Made by a program: the position numbers and the translations under genes. From Bacillota bacterium (GTDB lineage: Bacteria; Bacillota; SHA-98; Ch115): 44,868 nt of DNA. Of the stretch, positions 8,888-29,040 are shown in pieces. The stretch lies in contig DUSO01000037.1 of NCBI GenBank assembly GCA_012842565.1, positions 1 through 44,868 on the forward strand. Reading direction: 5' to 3'. The notes beneath the pieces were generated by a model. That model was not told where the DNA came from and searched no databases. It worked only from the letters and a program-made list of their open reading frames with translations. Within the stretch, counting starts at the first letter, position 1; each line of letters opens with the position of its first letter.

Positions 8888-9012
8888 CTCGCAGGGGGAG
8901 CCCCACATTGCGGGGCTGAGAGTGCGGGGCTGACTCGCAGACCCTTTGAACCTGATATAACATGGCCGCTTGTGGCTATGTTTCTGGGTAATACCAGCGC
9001 AGGGATTGACGG
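8888..9012 (+). promoter_or_regulatory. TPP riboswitch (THI element)
   Basis: The conserved thi-box parts appear in order: GGGGGAGCCCC, GGGGCTGAGAG, GACCCTTTGAACCTGAT, a variable arm (CATGGCCGCTTGTGGCTATG), and CTGGGTAATACCAGCG-CAGGGA. These form the TPP-binding aptamer. It is followed by an intrinsic terminator and by thiE and thi4, so excess thiamine pyrophosphate should shut down thiazole and TMP synthesis. Confidence 0.96.
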
Positions 9013-9030
9013 AGCCCAAGACACAAAGCA

Positions 9031-9065
9031 ACCGCAGACCCAAGCTGGGCTGCGGTATTTGTTTC
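9031..9065 (+). terminator. Riboswitch-controlled intrinsic terminator
   Basis: A hairpin ACCGCAG-A-CCCA / TGGG-C-TGCGGT (stem 9031-9056, one bulged A) runs into TATTTGTTTC. It lies between the TPP aptamer and the thiE start, where an expression platform acting by premature termination is expected. Confidence 0.8.
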
Positions 9066-9164
9066 GCGGTCTACCGTGAGAGGCGACCTGCCTGGAGGGC
9101 GCAGCGCGAGTTGGCGCGCACGGGCGCGGCTTGGCGGGCACACGACCCGCTGGAGGCGATTCTT

Positions 9165-10274
9165 TTGAAATTCGGCCTTTACGTGATTCTTGATGGTAGT
9201 TTCGTCCGTGGGGGACCTCATCGTGGGACATCGTACGAGGACCTCGCCAGGGCAGTCCTGCTCGGCGGGGCAAGGGTCGTCCAGCTCAGAGACAAGGAGA
9301 TGCCTACGCGAGACCTTATCAACGTGGCAAGGCGCCTAAAAGAGATCGTCCACGCGCAGGGAGGCATCTTCATAGTGAATGACAGGGTGGACGTCGCGAT
9401 GGCCGTAGACGCTGACGGCGTACACCTGGGGCAAGAGGATATGCCTGTGGAGGTCGCTCGGCCGCTACTTGGGTATGGGAAAATCATCGGTGTATCGGCT
9501 CGCACTGTAGAGGCCGCCATCCGGGCGGAGAAGTCCGGAGCGACATACATAGGGACTGGAGCCATCCGGTCAACCTCAAGCAAACAGGATGCCACTGTGA
9601 TAGGTATCAACGGGCTGCGGGAGATTTGCAGGGCGACGGAGATACCCGTGGTCGCCATCGGGGGAATCACGACAGAAATGGTTGAGCCGGTAATCGAGGC
9701 CGGCGCCAGCGGGATTGCTGTCATCTCCGCCGTGCTGGGGGCACCTGACATCACGGGAGCTACTATGGAGCTGTATGCCAGGGTTGATGCAGCATTAGCC
9801 GCGAGGGACCGTGAGCGGATGCGGAGGGAATACCCCCAGGGCCCCAGGGTGGCTGCAAGTGTCCTGGTGTTTGACGGCACTGGACGGGTATTGCTTGCCA
9901 GGAGGGGGTGTGACCCGAATTACGGGAAGTGGAGCCTGCCCGGCGGGCTGGTAGAGCTCGGAGAGCGGGTGGAGGAGTGCGCGGCCAGGGAAGTATACGA
10001 GGAATGTGGCATAGAGGTGGAATTAAGAGGAATAGTGGATGTGGTGGATGCCATTATCCGCGATACAACAGGGCGGGTAAGGTTCGATTATGTGATAGTG
10101 GTCTTTAGAGGAATGCGCCGGAGAGGGGATCTCAGGCCTTCACTTGAACTCCTCGAGGCAGCATGGGTGCCGTTGAATGAAGCACAGGGGCTTGACCTCA
10201 CCGATACCACGCGGGATGTGCTGCAAAGATATGTCGGGTCGACGCCCGATGGCGCATTAACGAGGGGGGATTAG
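9165..10274 (+). CDS. thiE: Thiamine phosphate synthase fused to a Nudix hydrolase domain
   Basis: 369 residues from TTG 9165, chosen because GGAGG sits 8 bases upstream and the ThiE fold starts at once (KFGLYVILD). Residues 1-215 are a TMP synthase TIM barrel: VVQLRDKEM (39-46), NDRVDVA (72-78), DGVHLGQED (84-92), [10 protein letters not shown] (131-140) and AIGGIT (164-169). It joins HMP-PP to thiazole phosphate. Residues 228-357 are a Nudix domain with a perfect box (G261-x5-E267-x7-R275-E276-V-x-E279-E280-x-G282-I283). The fusion lies one base before thi4 under TPP-riboswitch control. The likely Nudix substrate is Thi4's ADP-thiazole product (inference). Confidence 0.93.
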
Positions 10275-10275
10275 T

Positions 10276-11067
10276 ATGCCACTTGATGACATCGTCATTT
10301 CGGAGGCCATAATCAGGAGGTACTTGGATGACCTTATCTCCTATCTCAAGTCCGTTGTCGCGATCGTGGGGGCCGGGCCGTCCGGGCTTACCGCAGCGTA
10401 CTACCTGGCCAGGTCGGGGCTCAAGACGGTGATTTTTGAGCGCCGGCTCTCGATAGGCGGCGGCATGTGGGGCGGGGGAATGATGTTCAACCATATAGTT
10501 GTGCAGGAAGAGGCCAGGGAAATCCTAGATGAATTTGGAATCAACTACAAACCGTTCCAACCCTGTTATTATACCGCAGACTCCATTGAAGCTGTAACCA
10601 CGCTGGGCTCCAGGGCAGTCAAGGCCGGAGCCAAGATCTTCAACCTCCTGACGGCGGAGGACGTCATGCTCCGCGACGACCGTGTAACCGGTCTCGTCCT
10701 CAACTGGAGCGCCGTAGATATGGCTAAACTACACATAGACCCTCTCACCATCGAGAGCTCGTTCACCGTAGACGCTACAGGTCACGACTGCCAGGTCGTG
10801 CGTATCCTTCAAGACAAGCTCAGGCTGAAACTCGCTACGCCCAGCGGAGGGATCGAAGGGGAAAAGGCAATGTGGGCTGAACGGGGCGAGGGCGCTATCC
10901 TTGCCAATACCAGGGAGGTTTACCCCGGCCTTTTCGTAGCAGGTATGGCGGCAAACGCGGTCTTCGGCTCTCACAGGATGGGCCCGATTTTTGGCGGAAT
11001 GCTCCTCTCAGGCAGGAGGGTTGCTGAGATAATCCGCGAACAACGTGAAAGGGAGAGCCGGATTTGA
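10276..11067 (+). CDS. thi4: Thi4 family ADP-thiazole synthase, sulfide-dependent (His) type
   Basis: 263 residues. It has an N-terminal dinucleotide-binding motif VGAGPSG (31-37), the E-R-R and [12 protein letters not shown] segment (55-72), and a C-terminal [20 protein letters not shown]. Thi4 builds the thiamine thiazole from NAD and glycine. In yeast and plants a Cys in the DPxx loop donates its own sulfur (suicide enzyme). Here that position is H153 in KLHIDPLT, as in methanogen Thi4, which uses free sulfide and Fe(II) and turns over. That fits an anaerobe. GAGGGGG precedes the ATG, and the gene is coupled to thiE. Confidence 0.93.
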
Positions 11068-13947: not shown

Positions 13948-14955
13948 CTAAACCCGCTTCCCTGCCAGCCGGGCTACTTGAGACAGATCCTGAATCAATT
14001 CCTTGAGCGCCAGCTCCACCAATTCAGGATCGGGGTTCGGGCATTCCGCTTTGCCTTCGTGTATTCTCATTACGAGCCCGTCAGCCCCGGCAATGATAGC
14101 TGCCTTTGCAATAGCGGGAGCAATGTTGGCTGGACGCCCCGTGCCCGGGGCTCCCGCTCCGGACCAGGCGCATGACCCACCTTCCGCAAGCCGGGCGTAG
14201 GGTAATCCAACTATAAGCGGGAGGGAGCAGAGACTCTTGGCTGTCGCGACAGCCACCAGGTCAGGTGCCCCGGCCGGGTCCCGGAGACCCACAAAAGCAG
14301 TATCTTCATATAAGACTACGTTGCAATTGCCTCCCGACACAATACAATCAGCAGCTTCCAGCCATTCCTCTATCCCATGGGTGCCCCCGCGGGCGAGCAA
14401 CACCGGTTTCCCTGCCCCTATGACTGCATGAGTCATATCCTGGCTTGCCAGGTCGTGCGCGCTGACCTCCAGGACATCCGCATAGTCTTCGACCGCTGCA
14501 ATATCCCCGGGGCTTTGGACTCCTACTACCACTGCAAGCCCCGTCGCCCGAGAGACCTCCGCCAGCACCTTCATCCCGCCCAGGGAGACCCCCACAGCTC
14601 CGGGCCCTGCGGCACCACCGGCGCCCTTAACTGCCGCAGCTGCCCCATCTTCGGGCCCCACATGATTACCGGCATAGGGCCCGCAGTATATCCCGGTGCA
14701 GCCGGCCCCCAGGAGAGCCTCCGAGATTGCCACAAGGAAGGACCTATTCTCGTATTCTGCGGCTGGCAGCGGCCCTGCCATATAGACCAACTCGTTCCCG
14801 CCTATCGAGACATCCAGGAGCGCTTCCCGGATAATCTGCCGGGCGGCCCCTATCATACTCTCTGCACCGAGGAGCGATTCGAGACTTGTGCCTATATACT
14901 CCGAGTCCTGCGGCTTCGACTGCCTTAACCTGACTGCACATCTCCTACGGGCCAT
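13948..14955 (-). CDS. DAHP-synthase-like protein with degenerate active site
   Basis: 335 residues from ATG 14955, chosen for GGAGGGGTGAT directly upstream; a GTG at 15060 with GGGAGGGAG is also possible. The middle follows the AroF/KdsA-like DAHP synthase fold: LGGMKVLAEVSRATGL, DYADVLEVSAHDLASQDM, KPVLLARGGTHGIEEWLEAA, SLPLIVGLP and AAIIAGADGLVMRIHEG. The catalytic motifs are changed. GPCS is GPLP, KPRTSPY is missing, LKRG is LARG, CERG is YEDT, DPSH is GLPY and EVHP is RIHE. The four metal ligands of the family (Cys, His, Glu, Asp) seem lost. It may be a pseudoenzyme or have a new activity. A T-box lies upstream. Confidence 0.75.
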   Translation of the reverse strand: MARRRCAVRLRQSKPQDSEYIGTSLESLLGAESMIGAARQIIREALLDVSIGGNELVYMAGPLPAAEYENRSFLVAISEALLGAGCTGIYCGPYAGNHVGPEDGAAAAVKGAGGAAGPGAVGVSLGGMKVLAEVSRATGLAVVVGVQSPGDIAAVEDYADVLEVSAHDLASQDMTHAVIGAGKPVLLARGGTHGIEEWLEAADCIVSGGNCNVVLYEDTAFVGLRDPAGAPDLVAVATAKSLCSLPLIVGLPYARLAEGGSCAWSGAGAPGTGRPANIAPAIAKAAIIAGADGLVMRIHEGKAECPNPDPELVELALKELIQDLSQVARLAGKRV

Positions 14956-15189
14956 ATCACCCCTCCCTCTACCAGGCCTTGCTATGGCCTCATCACCATT
15001 AGCCCCCAAGTCGTGGCATTTCATATCATAGTAATCCTTAAAAGATAGGCATCCTTGCACGGACACTCCCTCCCAATATGGACAAAATCCAAATATACAA
15101 ACAAAACCCAAACCCGGTTCACCGGTCGAGCATAGGCCCTCCTCAGCCCGGGACCCCATCCCGGCCCAGGGCGTTCTCGGGGGATTACG

Positions 15190-15620
15190 CCCTGGTACAA
15201 ACCAAGCTCCCGCCCCGGAAGGGACGGGAGCTACTTGCTCTCGTGGTACCACCCTACTTGACCTGTGCTAAGTGCCGGCCCGGCGCCTGCCGTCCCCGGG
15301 ATCTGTCCGGGAAACCCCACACCGGTCCCGCTGTAATCGCCGCTCGCAACACAGGTCCGCTCATGCCAGGTACGGGGCGCGCGAGCCACCCGATACCCGC
15401 TTTCATATAACGGTGAAAGTGCCGGCCCAGCCTACTTGCCCCGCACCGGTCACACCATTCAACCAGCCTTCTGGTCAAGGGTTGAACCAGCCATTCGAGG
15501 TTTCAGCCGGCGGCTCCCGGGAGAACTTCGCCCGACCCGCCCGTACCGCACTTGCACCTGACCGCGGCTCTCTATACGTTAGACTCGGGCTACTTTTCCC
15601 GTTCAAAGCCTTTCTCTCGA
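15190..15620 (-). promoter_or_regulatory. T-box leader, probable Phe specifier
   Basis: Read on the minus strand. The T-box sequence AGGGTGGTACCACG (15242-15255) precedes a terminator hairpin. Upstream, stem I is recognisable: CGGGA-AAAGTA-GCCCGA pairs with TCGGGC-GAAGTTC-TCCCG, an AGTA loop strand facing GAAG-TTC, and AGAGAGCC...GGTGCAAG matches the distal part. The triplet in the specifier position reads TTC (Phe). The UGGU bulge would pair with a tRNA whose discriminator is A, as in tRNA-Phe. About 430 bases is long for a T-box; an extra GC-rich segment lies between stem I and the antiterminator. It controls the DAHP-synthase-like gene. Confidence 0.85.
15204..15233 (-). terminator. T-box terminator hairpin
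   Basis: On the minus strand AGCTCCCG-TCCC / GGGG-CGGGAGCT forms a stable stem followed by TGGTTTGT. It directly follows the T-box motif, the normal position of the terminator that competes with the antiterminator. Confidence 0.75.
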
Positions 15621-21291: not shown

Positions 21292-24200
21292 TCAGAGTCT
21301 AAATAGCCTTAGTTGGGCCTCTCTTCGCCCTTTCTTAGGGACGTCCGGCCTTTCTTCACGCTCGAGAAGGCCGGACGGTATCTCCTGCAGGAAAGGCGAC
21401 GGGCTGGAAGGCCTGGGCGCCCCGAACCTGCGGCGCCTGACCGCACGAAGGAGGATCAATTCCTCTCTTGCGCGGGTCATCGCCACGTAAAAGAGTCGAC
21501 GTTCCTCCTCCGGAATGGCCTCGTCTTCCGCGTCCCTGAGCGGGATCAGTCCATCTTCAAAGCCGGTGACAAAGACGACGGGAAATTCCAGGCCCTTGGC
21601 GGCATGCATTGTCATAAGTGTCACGGCCTCCGGCACAAGGCCCTGGCCACCGGGACGGAGGGCGTCCCCCTCTTGCTCGAGCCCCACCCTCGAGACCAGC
21701 GACTCTAGATCCGGGAAGCGGGTGGCCACCAGGAGGAGGCGTTTTATCCCTTCGTCCTCTGAAATCCCGACTTCTTCGGCCCACCTGGCGATCAATTGCC
21801 GGGGAGGCAAGGTGCGGGAAAGCTCTTGATACCGCGCGAGGAGGGACTCCAGAGATGCCTCCGCCGGGCATTTTAACATACCGCCCGAATTGGGTACCGC
21901 CCCGGAACCGGGCGCTACCTCGGAACCGGGCAACCGCATCTGTAGGCACCGGCCCCTGTGAAAGGCGTCTAACGGATTCAACACGCATCGCATGAAAGAG
22001 AGCGCGTCCCGCACGGGCTGTGATTGCAGGAACCCTTCCCTGCCGACTACTCTGTATGGGATTCCTTCTTTTATAAAGCATTCCTCGAGGGCCTCGACTT
22101 GCCTTGAGGTGCGGAAAAGCACTGCGAAATCGGAGAATCCTCTCCCCTCCATAGATGCCTCCCGGTTTGCCCCGGCCGCCTTGCCTCTCCTACTGCGACC
22201 GCTCCTGTCATGATAACCACCCTGCCCATGGGCCTCGAGCATAGTGGTGCCACCGACCGCGCCGGCTATCTCTTTTACCACCGCGATGCCCTCCGATAGC
22301 TCGCCAGGCAACTCCAGATATCTGATCTTAGGGCCCCCGGGTCTCAAGGCAGAGATTGAATACGGGAAACGATCCCGGTTGTTTGCTATCACAGAAGATG
22401 CTGCGATTACTATCTCCGGCGTAGACCGGTAATTGATACGAAGCTCGACGAGACGGGCCCCGGGGAAGTCCTCACGTAACCTGGCAAAAAACCGGTGGTC
22501 TGCGCCGCGAAACCCGTAGATAGCCTGGTCCGGGTCACCGATCACAAATAGCGTCCCTCCATCCCGGGCCCACTGCTTTACAAGTCGGTATTGGACGGGA
22601 TTCACGTCCTGAAACTCGTCGACCAGGATATGGCCGAATCTCTTCAGACTTGCTGGCTGTACCAGTCCCTGCTCCATGAGCCTGAGGGTCTCCAGGAGGA
22701 TATCATCGTAATCGAGTGCGCCGTATTCTCGTAGCTTCTCCTGATAGGCCCTGTATATACCCCGAAGGTCCGGAGGGACATCACTGGAATCCGCATCAAT
22801 GCCCCGGCTCTTCAAGAGGGATATCCTTTTCTGGATATCTCTCGACCGCAGCGAACCCGTCTCCCTTGATTGGGGTGAGCCCGTCTTTTCGACACGGCCA
22901 TCGCCTGACAGCGCATCCAGCGCCTCCTCAAGCACGGAGAGGGAGTCGAATTCGTCGAGGACGTTGAGAGCAGCCTCGCTAGTGAGGCCGGCCTCCTCGC
23001 GGAGAATCTGGAGGCAGATGCCGTGAAATGTGCCGATAGTCAGCTTATCCAGCGGCACGGTCGGGCCGGCCTCTTTGGCAAGACCAGCGCCCCTATTTGA
23101 GCCGGCCTCGCCCAGGAGTGCGGAAATCCTGGCTTTCATCTCGGCTGCCGCCCTGTTTGTAAAGGTGACTGCCGTGATCTCCTCGGGCGGCACGCCCTTC
23201 TCCAGGATCAGGTGAGCGACCCGGCATGCGAGCGTCATCGTCTTGCCGGTGCCGGGCCCCGCCATGACGACGACCGGCCCGGACTCAGCGTTGACGGCCT
23301 CGACCTGGGCAGGATTGAGGCCCTGTACGAGGCTGGAATAAGTCCTATGCGGCACCTGCGGTGCTGCCTCCCCCTGCGAAGAGGCCTCTACCCTTAGGGG
23401 AGTCTCCACCTGCTGCGGGGGAGTCTCCGGTTGCGTATGCGTAAAAGCGCCTGCCTGAGGAGGAACCTCGGCCTGCAACGGAGCCCCAGCCCCCGAGGTC
23501 CGCCTGACAGAGAGGCTGGCCGTAGCAGCTTCCGCAGCAGCCTTATCTCCAGCGAGTCCCCCGGCAAACTCAACAGGCTCCACGGCAAAGAGGACAGCCT
23601 GGCCGCCAGCCCTGGTGCGCTCTGTCTCTCTCATCACTGATACCTTGCCATACTGGCCGTCAAAGCCCGGGATTACCTCAACCTCTCTCTCCCTGACCCT
23701 TCGAATGGCTTCCGCTACAACAGGGCCGGCGATCTCCTGTAATTCCCCGAGAGGGGTTTTCCGGAGCGCGGTGAGCTCTGAGCCCACATTGTTTATGATA
23801 TCCAGGTAACGCCTGCGGACCTGGCGAGCCTCCGGACCCGATCCCAGTGCCGAGGCTATCAATTCCTGGAGAGGGATAAGACTCTCATAATGCCTTGCAG
23901 CATCGGGGACCACCCCTTCATCCCTGTCGGCAAGCTCCTCAACCCTGTGCAACACGCCCACAGTAACCCTCCGCCCGCACACGGGGCAGATCCCCCCGGC
24001 CGCCCGGGTCTCCCGCGGGTGCCAGCGGATGTTGCAGTTCCTATGACCGTCATAATGGTATTTCCCTTCCTCGGGAAAGAACTCGATGGTCCCCAGGAAG
24101 CGCTTCGGATCCCGGTCTTTGAGTGCATCGCGGATACCCGAAAACGATAACTCTGTGTCGAACAGGTTAGCCTCGCGGGCCAGATTGGCGGGCGAATGGG

Positions 24201-24858
24201 CGTCGGAATTAGATACAAGCGCAAAGCGGTCCAGGGCTGAGAGACGCCAGTTCATGGGAGGATCAGACGAAAGGCCCGTCTCAACCGCAAGTATCTGGCC
24301 GGTGAGGTCCTCAAAACACTCCTCTATTGCGTCAAACCCCGAATTGGATCCAAAGAGCGAGAAATGTGGCGTCCAGATATGGGCAGGGATGAAGATGGCT
24401 TGCGGGCACACCTCCAGAGTCATCTCGAGGAGCCTGCGACTATCCAGGCCGAGGATGGGCCTCCCATCGGAACGAATATTCCCGACTGTTTCCAGGCGCT
24501 GGCTTAACGTGTCGGCAGCCTCCAGGCTCGGTAGAAGTATCAGGTGGTGAATCTTGCGGGTTCGGCCCGCTTTTTTGTAGATTGTGCTTATCTCCCCCGA
24601 GATCACAAAGCGAACGCCGTCCCGATTGCCGACGTTCTGATTGCCGGAGGGACCATCCTTCAACCTGTAGAGCCCTTCTTCCGCCGGTTCGAGCTTGTCT
24701 CTGAGCTCATCTCGCCACCCGGGGTGAGTAAAATCCCCGGTGCCCACCACCGTGAGCCCCTTGTAGGCAGCCCATGTGAGAATATTCTCAGGGTTACAAT
24801 CTCTGCTGGTCGCCCTCGAGAAATGTGAATGGATATGGAAATCCGCAATAAACTCCAT
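21292..24858 (-). CDS. Endonuclease Q-like PHP nuclease fused to a UvrD-type helicase
   Basis: 1188 residues from ATG 24858. Residues 1 to about 410 match the TIGR00375/EndoQ family: PHP metal motif DFHIHSHFSRAT, VVGTGDFTHP, SNSDAHS, and a zinc finger with CNIRWHP and ICPVCG (about 275-297). EndoQ cuts DNA beside deaminated bases. A Pro/Gln-rich linker (about 460-505) follows. The rest is a UvrD/PcrA helicase: Walker A AGPGTGKT near 535, TFTNRAAAEMK, TFHG, LVDEFQDVN, GDPDQAIYGFRGA, and C-terminal [14 protein letters not shown] and VAMTRAREEL. Several low-complexity loops are inserted in the helicase. It may unwind and incise damaged DNA in one chain. Confidence 0.93.
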   Translation of the reverse strand: MEFIADFHIHSHFSRATSRDCNPENILTWAAYKGLTVVGTGDFTHPGWRDELRDKLEPAEEGLYRLKDGPSGNQNVGNRDGVRFVISGEISTIYKKAGRTRKIHHLILLPSLEAADTLSQRLETVGNIRSDGRPILGLDSRRLLEMTLEVCPQAIFIPAHIWTPHFSLFGSNSGFDAIEECFEDLTGQILAVETGLSSDPPMNWRLSALDRFALVSNSDAHSPANLAREANLFDTELSFSGIRDALKDRDPKRFLGTIEFFPEEGKYHYDGHRNCNIRWHPRETRAAGGICPVCGRRVTVGVLHRVEELADRDEGVVPDAARHYESLIPLQELIASALGSGPEARQVRRRYLDIINNVGSELTALRKTPLGELQEIAGPVVAEAIRRVREREVEVIPGFDGQYGKVSVMRETERTRAGGQAVLFAVEPVEFAGGLAGDKAAAEAATASLSVRRTSGAGAPLQAEVPPQAGAFTHTQPETPPQQVETPLRVEASSQGEAAPQVPHRTYSSLVQGLNPAQVEAVNAESGPVVVMAGPGTGKTMTLACRVAHLILEKGVPPEEITAVTFTNRAAAEMKARISALLGEAGSNRGAGLAKEAGPTVPLDKLTIGTFHGICLQILREEAGLTSEAALNVLDEFDSLSVLEEALDALSGDGRVEKTGSPQSRETGSLRSRDIQKRISLLKSRGIDADSSDVPPDLRGIYRAYQEKLREYGALDYDDILLETLRLMEQGLVQPASLKRFGHILVDEFQDVNPVQYRLVKQWARDGGTLFVIGDPDQAIYGFRGADHRFFARLREDFPGARLVELRINYRSTPEIVIAASSVIANNRDRFPYSISALRPGGPKIRYLELPGELSEGIAVVKEIAGAVGGTTMLEAHGQGGYHDRSGRSRRGKAAGANREASMEGRGFSDFAVLFRTSRQVEALEECFIKEGIPYRVVGREGFLQSQPVRDALSFMRCVLNPLDAFHRGRCLQMRLPGSEVAPGSGAVPNSGGMLKCPAEASLESLLARYQELSRTLPPRQLIARWAEEVGISEDEGIKRLLLVATRFPDLESLVSRVGLEQEGDALRPGGQGLVPEAVTLMTMHAAKGLEFPVVFVTGFEDGLIPLRDAEDEAIPEEERRLFYVAMTRAREELILLRAVRRRRFGAPRPSSPSPFLQEIPSGLLEREERPDVPKKGRREAQLRLFRL

Positions 24859-24975
24859 GATATCGGTGTCTCCTTGCTGCCGCAAGCACCCTGCTGCCAA
24901 GAGCGGCGGGGCCCCGCCCGCCCTGAAACGGCGGGGATATAAGCCAGGTCATGGCGATCGTCTCTTCTTTATTCA

Positions 24976-25183: not shown

Positions 25184-26107
25184 GTGCCAGAAGAACTAGA
25201 CGAAATCAACCTATGGGATTATTGGATGGTCATCAGGAAAAGGGCCGGTATCATCATGACGATATTCGGGGCTGCGGTCATCGCCAGCGCTGTATTGAGC
25301 TTCTTCGTATTGCCCCCGGTATATGAAGCGACTGTTGCCATCATGGTCCAGGACCCCGGGGGGGAAGGCACCCCGCAATGGTCCCTCGAGACCTATTCGA
25401 GCGTGATGGAGGGTTCCGCCGTCAGGAGGGCCGTGGTAGAAACGCTCAAGCTGGATGAGACTCCGGAAGACCTTAAGGAAATCGCCTCGACAGAGATCTT
25501 GAAGGGTACCAATATACTGCGGCTCAAGGTAAAACGCAATTCGGCACAGGAGGCAAGTGAGATAGCCAACACATGGGCACGCCTCTTTGTAGCCAAGGTC
25601 AACGAGATCAAGATGAATGACCTGTCCCGGGCCATAAACCTCCGGAAGGCCGCCCTCGAGGCGGCCCTGGCCGAGATCAAGGACCAGCGCCCCACAATAG
25701 AATTAAAGCGCTCCCTGGTAGATGAACCCATGGCCTATGAGGCGGTCAAGAGCCTGGTTGGCAACCAGGCCAGGAGGCTTGCAGCAATCCAGGTCAATGT
25801 CGAGGAGCCCAACCCGACCTACCAGGACCTTATAAGCCGGATTGCCGATAGCAGGCTTGCTTTGAAAGACCTCGAGACGAGGCTCGAGTTGCTTAAGACT
25901 GACTCTCAGGTATTCGTGAGGGTGTTATCTCCGTCCCTGCCGCCTGAGTCGCCGGTCGCCCCGAGGAAGCTCCTAAACATAGCCGTAGCTGCCATGTTGG
26001 GGCTCATGGTGGGTGTATTCCTGGCTTTTGCCATGGAAGCGCTGGAGGCGGGGGCCAACAGCCACTCCCCCGGCGCCAAGGCGGGCGCCTCCCAGCCGGT
26101 ATCATAG
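25184..26107 (+). CDS. Wzz/chain-length-determinant domain membrane protein
   Basis: 307 residues from GTG 25184, preceded by AGGGGGAAG. A Wzz N-terminal domain (INLWDYWMVIRKR, a span at about 24-45 ending VLPPVYEATVAIMV) and a second span near the C-terminus (IAVAAMLGLMVGVFLAFAMEAL, preceded by PESPVAPRK) enclose an extracytoplasmic coiled-coil region. This is the topology of proteins that set polysaccharide chain length or co-polymerise exopolysaccharide. No tyrosine kinase domain and no glycosyltransferase or flippase genes are nearby, so its partner system is elsewhere and its role is unassigned. Confidence 0.88.
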   Translation: MPEELDEINLWDYWMVIRKRAGIIMTIFGAAVIASAVLSFFVLPPVYEATVAIMVQDPGGEGTPQWSLETYSSVMEGSAVRRAVVETLKLDETPEDLKEIASTEILKGTNILRLKVKRNSAQEASEIANTWARLFVAKVNEIKMNDLSRAINLRKAALEAALAEIKDQRPTIELKRSLVDEPMAYEAVKSLVGNQARRLAAIQVNVEEPNPTYQDLISRIADSRLALKDLETRLELLKTDSQVFVRVLSPSLPPESPVAPRKLLNIAVAAMLGLMVGVFLAFAMEALEAGANSHSPGAKAGASQPVS

Positions 26108-26174: not shown

Positions 26175-26432
26175 CTACTCAGGCGGCCGGGCCTCGACCC
26201 CTGCAACCAGGACCGCCCTGGAGATGCTCTCATCGCAGGCAAACTCACTTTCGCCCACTCTGAAGACACAGACCGGCGCCCTCCGGACCAGGGTAACTAT
26301 AGTCCCGGGCAGGAGGCCCATTGCGATGAGCTTTCGGAGTTGAGAGGGGTCGTTCGTCTTTATCTCTACAACCCTCGCCTCCTGCCCGGGGTGCATTTCA
26401 GACAAGCTAGTCCGAGTCCTGCATGTCTTCAA
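26175..26432 (-). CDS. feoA: FeoA family ferrous iron transport protein
   Basis: 85 residues. The SH3-like FeoA fold is recognisable in LSEMHPGQEARVVEI, LRKLIAMGLLPGTIVTLVRRAP and the final ISRAVLV. FeoA is a small cytoplasmic partner needed for FeoB-dependent Fe(II) uptake. The TTG at 26432 overlaps the feoB stop (TTGA) after GGGGTGA, so it is translationally coupled. The gene order feoB-feoA is the reverse of the more usual one. ATG 26396 is a possible internal start. Confidence 0.9.
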   Translation of the reverse strand: MKTCRTRTSLSEMHPGQEARVVEIKTNDPSQLRKLIAMGLLPGTIVTLVRRAPVCVFRVGESEFACDESISRAVLVAGVEARPPE

Positions 26433-28522
26433 GAGAATGTCACCCCTAACAAGTTAAGCACTGTGTTAGCTATAAAGCCGCAGCCGAAGGCCAGGGCGAA
26501 TACCGCCACCGCTATTCCAAGCGCCACCTTCATACCGCGCTCCTTCACCATTATCGAAAATTGGGCCACGCACGGCACGAAGAGGGTGAGCGATATGCTT
26601 GCCACCAGGAGCTGGTTGGGGGTGAGCGCGCCTGCGCGGTCAAGGTCGAAGAGGCCGGCCGCTCCATAGTCACGCCTGAAGAAGCCAAACAGGAAAGCAG
26701 TCGCCGCCTCCCGTGGCAGGCCTATGGCGCTCACTAGCGGCTCTAATGCACTTGTCGCGACATCAAAAAGCCCGGTTAGCTTTCCGCCCCAAATTAGGAT
26801 GCTGGCCAGCACAAAAACAGGCACCACCTCAGAGAAATACCACTTCATCCGGGCAAAGGTCTTCTTCAATATGTTGCCGAGCCCGGGAACGCGGAGCGGA
26901 GGCAGCTCCATATAAAAGGCCGGAGGGTTTCCGGGCAGTATCCGCGACAGGAGCCATCCACTGGTCGCGAAGGCCCCACCGACGAAAGCCACCCAAACCA
27001 GGAGCGCCCCGGGGTGCCCTGCCAGAAGCGCCATTATGACGCCCAGCTGGGCCGAGCAAGGAATCGCGAGAGCCATGAGAAAGGTTGCGATAATCCTTTC
27101 CCTCTCCGTTTCGAGGGTACGGGTCACAATGGTCGCCATAGTATCGCACCCGAGGCCCAGAGTAAGCGGCACTATTGCGCGGCCGCTCAAGCCGACCACC
27201 TTAAGGAGCCTATCTGACAGCATCGCAAGGCGCGGGAGATAGCCGGAGTCCTCAACCAGCGAAAATGCCAGGAAGAACGTCCCGACAATCGGCAATACGA
27301 TGGCAATCGCGTACCTCAGTCCCAGGGTGATGATCCCATAGTCGCCGGCTATCAAGAGCCGCAGGGGTTCAAAGGGCACGAACGACCCAACGAAACGTTC
27401 TACCAGGGGATTTACCGCGTGGACGAAGACCCGTTCCTCGATGAAGTCCACAAGGGTACCGGCCCCGAACTGCCCCACGAATTTGTAGAATACAAAGTAG
27501 AGAACAGCCAGGAGAATGGGAAATCCCGTCACAGGGTTCATGGTAATCCGGTTGAGCCATGTCCCGACAGGGCTGCGTCTTGTCCGCGACTGCGTGGTTA
27601 TCCCGCGCAGGATCCAGTTGACGTCCGCCTGCCTCCTGACCGTGAGATCATAAGCGAGGGAATGCCCGCTCTTGCTTTCGTACCTCCTGTTCAACTCGTC
27701 TGCATACCGGATGATCTCCTTCCCGCGAGGTTCGCTGTTTTGTAGCAGGTCAAGCGCCCACGCATCCTGCTGCAGGGCCAGCAAGGCCATCATGCGCCTG
27801 CTGAAGGGATGGTCTAACTCCATCATGCTGGTGAGGCTGGCTATCGCCTCCTCAATCTCACGGGTATAAGTCACAACCTGGATGCCCCGGGCGGTTGCGC
27901 AGTCCCGTGCGACCGCACATCCCCGGGCGCCGGGGTTTGGACGCCCTGAAGGTGTCGAGTACGCCCTGATAACGGACTTGAGCCGGTCGATTCCCATCCC
28001 GGATATAGAGGCTGTGCCTACGACCGGTATCCCGAGCCTTCGCTCAAGTTCTTCCAGGTCAATGGTGAAACCTGCCCTTTCGGCCTCATCCATCATATTG
28101 GCGACCAATATCACGGGCAAGCCTGCCTCGATGCACTGGATCGTCATATTGAGCATCCGGGGCAGATTCTTGGCATCTACCACGTGGAGCACAATGTCGG
28201 GCTTCTCCGAAGCCAGCACATCCCTCGTCACCCTCTCCTCGTCCGATATGGGAAGGAGTGAATATGCCCCCGGCGTATCCACGACCTCGTACACACCTTG
28301 TCCGATCAGGCAGTGTCCCCGCGACACATCTACCGTGGTACCCGGATAGTTCGACACCGTCGCATAGAGCCCCGTGAGATTGTTAAAGAGCATGCTCTTG
28401 CCGACATTGGGGCTCCCGACCAGGATGATCTTCTTCGCAACATCGCGTCTGGCTTTCCCGTGTCGGTGGCGCCACCTGTGGCAGTGGCCCCTCCCTGCCC
28501 CGTACCCTGCACCAGGAATCAA
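26429..28522 (-). CDS. feoB: Ferrous iron transporter FeoB
   Basis: 697 residues from TTG 28522, chosen because GGAGGGG lies 7 bases upstream and just after the fur stop. An N-terminal G domain shows G1 GSPNVGKS (about 35-42), G2/G3 region NYPGTTVDVSRG and VDTPGAYSL, and a GDI-like helical domain follows. The C-terminal membrane part holds two Gate motifs (LTLGLGCDTMATIVTRT, VPCVAQFSIMVKERG) and about eight or more spans. Before the G domain are about 33 residues with the His/Cys cluster GHCHRWRHRHG. A loop near GARGCAVARDCATARG looks like an insertion. Operon fur-feoB-feoA. Confidence 0.95.
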   Translation of the reverse strand: MIPGAGYGAGRGHCHRWRHRHGKARRDVAKKIILVGSPNVGKSMLFNNLTGLYATVSNYPGTTVDVSRGHCLIGQGVYEVVDTPGAYSLLPISDEERVTRDVLASEKPDIVLHVVDAKNLPRMLNMTIQCIEAGLPVILVANMMDEAERAGFTIDLEELERRLGIPVVGTASISGMGIDRLKSVIRAYSTPSGRPNPGARGCAVARDCATARGIQVVTYTREIEEAIASLTSMMELDHPFSRRMMALLALQQDAWALDLLQNSEPRGKEIIRYADELNRRYESKSGHSLAYDLTVRRQADVNWILRGITTQSRTRRSPVGTWLNRITMNPVTGFPILLAVLYFVFYKFVGQFGAGTLVDFIEERVFVHAVNPLVERFVGSFVPFEPLRLLIAGDYGIITLGLRYAIAIVLPIVGTFFLAFSLVEDSGYLPRLAMLSDRLLKVVGLSGRAIVPLTLGLGCDTMATIVTRTLETERERIIATFLMALAIPCSAQLGVIMALLAGHPGALLVWVAFVGGAFATSGWLLSRILPGNPPAFYMELPPLRVPGLGNILKKTFARMKWYFSEVVPVFVLASILIWGGKLTGLFDVATSALEPLVSAIGLPREAATAFLFGFFRRDYGAAGLFDLDRAGALTPNQLLVASISLTLFVPCVAQFSIMVKERGMKVALGIAVAVFALAFGCGFIANTVLNLLGVTFS

Positions 28523-28563
28523 GTATCGTCCCCTCCGCAGTTGCCCATTGTCCTCAGCTATTG

Positions 28564-29040
28564 TCAGCTTCGTGATGTCTCTCCGCCCTTCGCTGCCTCG
28601 CGGCATTTAGCGCAATACCCGTAAAACCTCAGGCTGTGGTCGGTTATCTGAAACCCTGTGCTGTCCTCGATTTCCTTCTCCAGGTGTTCAAGCAGGTCCT
28701 GGTTGAACTCGGTGATCCGGCCGCAGCCAATGCAGATCAGGTGATGGTGGAAATGCCCACCCACGTCCGTATTCAACTCATACCTGCTGCCGCTGGCACC
28801 CAATTCCAACTTGGAGACGATGCCCACGCGTTCGAGGGCGTCCAGGGTTCTGTAGACCGTTGCAAGCCCGATGCCGGGATGCCTCTCCATCGTCGCCAGG
28901 TATATATCCTCCGCGCTGGGGTGGGCCCCTATGTTTTCAGCAAGGACCTCGAGGACAGCCTCCCTCTCCGGCGTGACCCTGAGGTCGTTATCAGACATAA
29001 GGTTTATTGCGCGAGCAACCTCCCGCTTTACATCCCCCAT
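28564..29040 (-). CDS. fur: Fur family metal-responsive repressor
   Basis: 158 residues; GGAGGGCG precedes ATG 29040. An N-terminal winged helix (RVTPEREAVLEVL, SAEDIYLATMERHPGIGLATVYRTL) and a C-terminal dimer and metal domain with GGHFHHHLICIGCGRITEF and YGYCAKC, giving two CxxC pairs for structural zinc. It heads fur-feoB-feoA, which makes it the likely iron sensor that represses its own operon in Fe(II)-replete cells. A strong promoter with an overlapping Fur box lies directly upstream. PerR or Zur function cannot be fully excluded, but the FeoB context favours Fur. Confidence 0.93.
   Translation of the reverse strand: MGDVKREVARAINLMSDNDLRVTPEREAVLEVLAENIGAHPSAEDIYLATMERHPGIGLATVYRTLDALERVGIVSKLELGASGSRYELNTDVGGHFHHHLICIGCGRITEFNQDLLEHLEKEIEDSTGFQITDHSLRFYGYCAKCREAAKGGETSRS

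Follow-up and report, generated by a model that had tools for sequence, protein, structure and literature searches.

The open reading frame at 14955..13948 on the minus strand of the window (the whole stretch of 44,868 nucleotides analysed here) encodes a protein of 335 amino acids which has the type Ib DAHP synthase barrel without its catalytic residues, as judged from alignment, Pfam and NCBIfam matches, PDB structures and an AlphaFold2 model. It is almost certainly a pseudoenzyme, one that has lost its catalytic residues and been kept by selection, and the T-box leader in front of it places the gene, with equally high confidence, under phenylalanine control. We consider the chances evenly balanced that this conserved, dead paralogue of DAHP synthase is made in phenylalanine shortage, joins the intact AroF and relieves its feedback inhibition.

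The reading frame starts with an ATG at 14955 and is open throughout, and the Shine-Dalgarno-like sequence GGGAGGGG (14960..14967, minus strand) stands directly 5' of the start codon, in agreement with the intact frame and strong ribosome site described in an earlier note on this DNA. The predicted protein matches the Pfam family DAHP_synth_1 with 52 bits against a cut-off of 25.5 and the PDB entry 1vs1 with an E-value of 4e-21; the NCBIfam matches (E-value 8e-27) stay under their curated cut-offs (94 bits against 335 and 83 against 268). Taken together, these matches put the likeness to type I DAHP synthase beyond chance. Identity as a KDO8P synthase was rejected, the KDO8PS score being 40 bits and the DAHPS score 94 bits. 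The AlphaFold2 model, built from alignment rows without the orthologue described below, has a mean pLDDT of 72.5, with most barrel strands and helices at 85-96, and contains the (β/α)8 barrel of the DAHP/KDO8P synthase family, also seen in the PDB matches, with the eight strands, in order, at residues 57-63, 88-94, 141-145, 161-165, 185-188, 213-217, 247-256 and 293-299. The best Foldseek matches to this model in the PDB were type Ib DAHP synthases, and barrel and strand order are those of T. maritima TM0343 (1rzm/1vr6), a type Ib enzyme with an N-terminal ACT-like domain; the type I fold proposed earlier is thus borne out. The N-terminal part before AGP comprises 59 residues, compared with about 98 in intact enzymes such as TM0343, and model confidence is low over the first 50 of them; a reduced regulatory domain may lie there.

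All 17 available genomes of the small class to which the source genome belongs were searched, with 399 genomes in the comparison across the phylum, and one other genome of the window's family, G001 from a different genus, was available. It carries an orthologue (G001:C1, L032:8465-9352) with 37 % identity to the window protein, so that the orthologue sample consists of two sequences. The orthologue scored 508 bits with a model built from the pair, a value raised by construction, and the next best protein in the 399 phylum genomes scored 104 bits. The two proteins form a supported clade (100/99), as do the two leaders (95/92). Orthology is further supported by common neighbours, namely FeoB (26429-28606 in the window) and a Wzz-like gene (25184-26107), both named by inspection, and a gene for a PHP-UvrD fusion of 1202 amino acids (21292..24900, minus strand; L032:3602-7234 in G001), of which Pfam matches only the helicase half, the PHP/endonuclease-Q-like N-terminal part being recognized by inspection. 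In the window an additional metabolic gene cluster (16-21 kb) lies between the pseudoenzyme gene and these neighbours. A separate feature of the window is a thiamine phosphate synthase-NUDIX fusion at 8970-10274 (plus strand), with a Thi4-family gene (10276-11067) directly after it. Scanning genome contigs with peptide patterns of the pair, narrow enough that near records may be missed, gave no further pseudoenzymes, and a similarly narrow DNA-pattern scan for YED...GAPDL matched 16 stretches, none of them a pseudoenzyme and one adjoining an ordinary canonical DAHP synthase. A scan of viral contigs found none either, nor did the scans with these narrow patterns find one outside the window's family.

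The window protein and its orthologue were aligned with 41 intact DAHP synthases, of which one is from Enterococcus and the other 40 belong to the phylum of the source genome (n = 43). Residue numbers of the intact enzymes are those of T. maritima, and the metal, PEP and E4P roles of the catalytic residues were taken from PMC6362186. C102, H272, E298, D309, R126, K131, R133, T134, R186, K207 and R237 are kept in 41 of the 41 intact rows. In the window protein Cys102 corresponds to A66 or L63, His272 to Y253 and Glu298 to R297, and the equivalent of D309 is P308, with an Asp one column away (residue 309 of the window protein) that is aligned with D267 of the orthologue. Three metal ligands are clearly lost, and the fourth, the Asp, may have been retained; the earlier impression that all four appear lost holds for Cys102, His272 and Glu298 and is uncertain for the Asp, this being perhaps the only ligand conserved at a shifted position. 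R126, K131, R133, T134, R186, K207 and R237 are all replaced (A112, G117, G119, A120, H167, A188 and D218), and the alignment as a whole confirms that the catalytic motifs are changed. In the orthologue the KPRTSPY loop is wholly absent and H272, E298, K207 and R237 have become M, G, S and D. The window copy retains a single one of the 12 catalytic positions, and eight of them are missing from both proteins. Of 113 nearly invariant columns, 30 are kept by both pseudoenzymes, mainly Gly, Pro, Leu, Ala and Asp. Compared with TM0343, the window protein is without the metal, PEP and E4P residues and has a new motif in the loop of strand 6.

The T-box leader noted earlier was recovered with the Rfam model RF00230 as a full-length match (88.3 bits, E-value 1e-19) at 15615-15217 on the minus strand, and the leader of the orthologue scored 84 bits. 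Both scores are just below the Rfam gathering score of 93, and a default scan therefore overlooks the window T-box. The leader has a Stem I with specifier loop, an antiterminator with GGUGGNACC and a terminator, and it is predicted to bind tRNA. The specifier codon UUC (Phe) is at 15523..15525 (minus strand) in the context GAA-G-UUC-U-CCCGGGAG, which is the same in the orthologue. From the sequence and RF00230 the antiterminator core AGGGUGGUACC was assigned to 15244..15256 (minus strand, ends approximate), and a stem resembling a terminator, CTCCCGTCCC/GGGGCGGGAG, whose U-tract is weak, lies at 15197..15230 (minus strand). tRNA-Phe carries A73, and the UGGU of the antiterminator fits an A73 tRNA such as tRNA-Phe. 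The specifier was read as the three bases ending one base 5' of the conserved CC, a rule calibrated with 21 leaders drawn from both genomes, the downstream genes being named by inspection of their translations. It agreed with the downstream gene in 19 of the 19 other leaders (cysE UGC; trpS/trpE/trpB-like UGG; serS UCC; proS CCC; leuS/leuA/ilvB CUC; valS GUC; ileS AUC), the two pseudoenzyme leaders being the only Phe leaders among the 21. The same rule has been reported for tRNA ligases and experimentally verified genes (PMC2494555). With a Phe specifier, and the rule matching in the other leaders, the pseudoenzyme very likely functions in phenylalanine supply. The window protein contains two Phe residues and the orthologue one, where about 10 and 9 would be expected; these are the smallest numbers among the proteins sampled in each genome, and the Tyr content of both is normal. 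This scarcity fits, if weakly, translation under phenylalanine shortage; some of the Phe residues had been in the lost motifs.

The earlier note had proposed to look for a second, canonical aroF, and each genome was found to have one intact type I aroF, within a full aro operon that reads aroH-aroF-tyrA-aroA-aroE-aroC-aroKB, with at most slight differences in order. AroH is thus encoded beside the intact aroF, and the pseudoenzyme gene is located outside the operon. Type II DAHP synthase was searched for and is absent from both genomes. Prephenate dehydratase is present in both, in the source genome (G000) apparently split over two contig ends. A further reading, in which the pseudoenzyme stands in for a chorismate mutase or prephenate dehydratase that the genome lacks, was rejected since AroH and prephenate dehydratase are both present.

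Intact DAHP synthases are also found behind Phe T-boxes. In G003, from the sister family, an operonic DAHP synthase is accompanied by a second, intact one, which a Phe T-box (UUC) precedes by 50 bases, and similar genes occur in G049, G050 and G058, which belong to three further families. These isozymes (L021, L025, L029, L031) have the leader type and the UUC codon of the window gene and, unlike the two pseudoenzymes, keep all catalytic motifs. The H-x-S segment found in operonic enzymes is absent from their regulatory domains, so that they resemble a separate isozyme, and the changed segment suggests a phenylalanine-controlled isozyme with another effector response. No T-box was seen in the 330 bases upstream of the second DAHP synthase copy of G002. 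In the protein tree the pseudoenzymes, on very long branches, are unplaced among the intact copies, and in the leader tree their leaders are not firmly joined to the G003 Phe leader. From the leader type in common and its distribution, the pseudoenzyme probably descends from an active DAHP synthase isozyme controlled by a Phe T-box, and the intact relatives in other families look like the ancestral state. By the simplest account, in the ancestor of the window's family the isozyme would have lost catalysis and much of the N-terminal domain and retained the leader. T-boxes of different specificity precede DAHP synthase within the phylum: those at the DAHP synthase regions L012 and L047 read UAC (Tyr), the L047 leader being about 950 bases upstream and possibly belonging to another gene. 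At L031:797-1200 there is a tandem arrangement, with another antiterminator-terminator unit after the Phe T-box of the intact DAHP synthase.

For a dead paralogue induced by phenylalanine shortage the most likely target is the intact AroF, and a role as allosteric partner, one of two suggested earlier, appears to be the best available reading; action through AroF is, in our estimate, a proposition that could fall either way. Uncharged tRNA-Phe would stabilize the antiterminator and turn the gene on, and the pseudoenzyme, with the barrel kept but no complete N-terminal ACT-like domain, would form mixed oligomers with AroF. In T. maritima DAHP synthase, pairing of ACT domains forms the Tyr site (PMC5493349), and a subunit without this domain would break the latch and relieve feedback inhibition of AroF. 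That the pseudoenzyme acts by breaking the ACT-domain latch is a tentative suggestion, as is the fuller picture of a bacterial shikimate 'prozyme', in which a latch-less dead subunit made by a riboswitch may enter the live tetramer and free AroF from tyrosine feedback. Mixed oligomers could equally inhibit AroF.

HisZ is a paralogue of histidyl-tRNA synthetase. It is comparable with the pseudoenzyme in being non-catalytic and, as the regulatory subunit of ATP phosphoribosyltransferase, it activates the first enzyme of an amino-acid pathway and mediates its feedback control (PMC9734150); unlike the pseudoenzyme, a paralogue of its presumed partner AroF, HisZ is no paralogue of its target. The trypanosome AdoMetDC prozyme (PMC5201418, PMC6221367) and the dead paralogue of deoxyhypusine synthase (PMC3663545) are also dead paralogues of pathway enzymes, and expression of the prozyme responds to the state of its own pathway (PMC5201418, PMC6221367). 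The trypanosome systems differ in being eukaryotic, in having activation shown experimentally and in being induced without a T-box. In these precedents a dead paralogue or regulatory subunit raises the activity of a first or key enzyme (PMC9734150, PMC5201418, PMC6221367, PMC3663545).

The T-box links the pseudoenzyme to phenylalanine only, and DAHP synthases bind chorismate mutases, as in the M. tuberculosis complex (PMC6435475), so the dead homologue might serve phenylalanine supply through the AroH chorismate mutase, prephenate dehydratase or a transporter instead of AroF. This seems rather unlikely, as the AroH gene adjoins the intact aroF and dead paralogues whose function is known are often partners of the enzyme they derive from (PMC5201418, PMC3663545).

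Where strand 6 ends, YEDxAxxG...GAPDLV has taken the place of the canonical CERGxRT...NTLDLS, and many of the derived residues shared by the two copies cluster at this strand end and its loop; the window protein also has an acidic set, E163, E217 and D218. These features would suit a new enzyme in which DAHP chemistry was lost and another reaction, or a small-ligand site at the barrel mouth, is useful in phenylalanine metabolism. Non-metal KDO8P synthases show that loss of the metal by itself need not be fatal to this fold. The Lys and Arg residues that bind PEP and phosphate are, however, replaced in both copies, the KPRTSPY loop is missing in G001, and neither a new Schiff-base lysine at the barrel mouth nor any other new lysine or metal set common to both was found in the alignment and the AlphaFold2 model, which is poor near residues 98-119, 221-228 and 260-275. 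The aldolase-like role suggested earlier is accordingly not supported, and a new enzyme appears improbable.

A slowly decaying pseudogene, with its frame open by chance, could account for the very long branches and for the 37 % identity of the pair, as aroF of the same two genomes is 82 % identical. Identities between the window gene and its orthologue at codon positions 1, 2 and 3 are, however, 0.50, 0.62 and 0.29 (expected 0.31, 0.26 and 0.26), so that third positions are saturated and positions 1 and 2 conserved, and in 109 columns where both copies depart from the intact enzymes the same new residue is found in 37, against 7.8 by shuffling. With frame, Shine-Dalgarno sequence and T-box intact in two genera, and the orthologue equally dead, these data argue that the gene is retained under purifying selection in both genera, as the earlier note had supposed, and decay is very improbable. 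No intact orthologue marking the window copy as decaying was found in the window's family; the intact relatives with a Phe T-box belong to other families. The one Asp perhaps kept in the window copy, and in the G001 copy the Asp, a Cys close to the metal site and the single Arg (of GARN) kept by alignment, would favour a DAHP synthase that is still active and whose catalytic residues have moved. This is hardly credible, because the survivors differ between the two copies and His272, Glu298, K131, K207 and R237 are missing from each.

DAHP synthase is a classic example of allosteric control, and the literature searched revealed no dead paralogue of it and no account of a DAHP-synthase pseudoenzyme. 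Pfam scores the pseudoenzyme as a DAHP synthase above the cut-off, which calls for caution in annotation. The intact isozymes of the neighbouring families and the pseudoenzyme may represent the states before and after a transition from enzyme to regulator. Both presumed partners should be ordinary soluble proteins. If the pseudoenzyme tunes AroF, an RNA switch would set the feedback sensitivity of an amino-acid pathway through subunit exchange.
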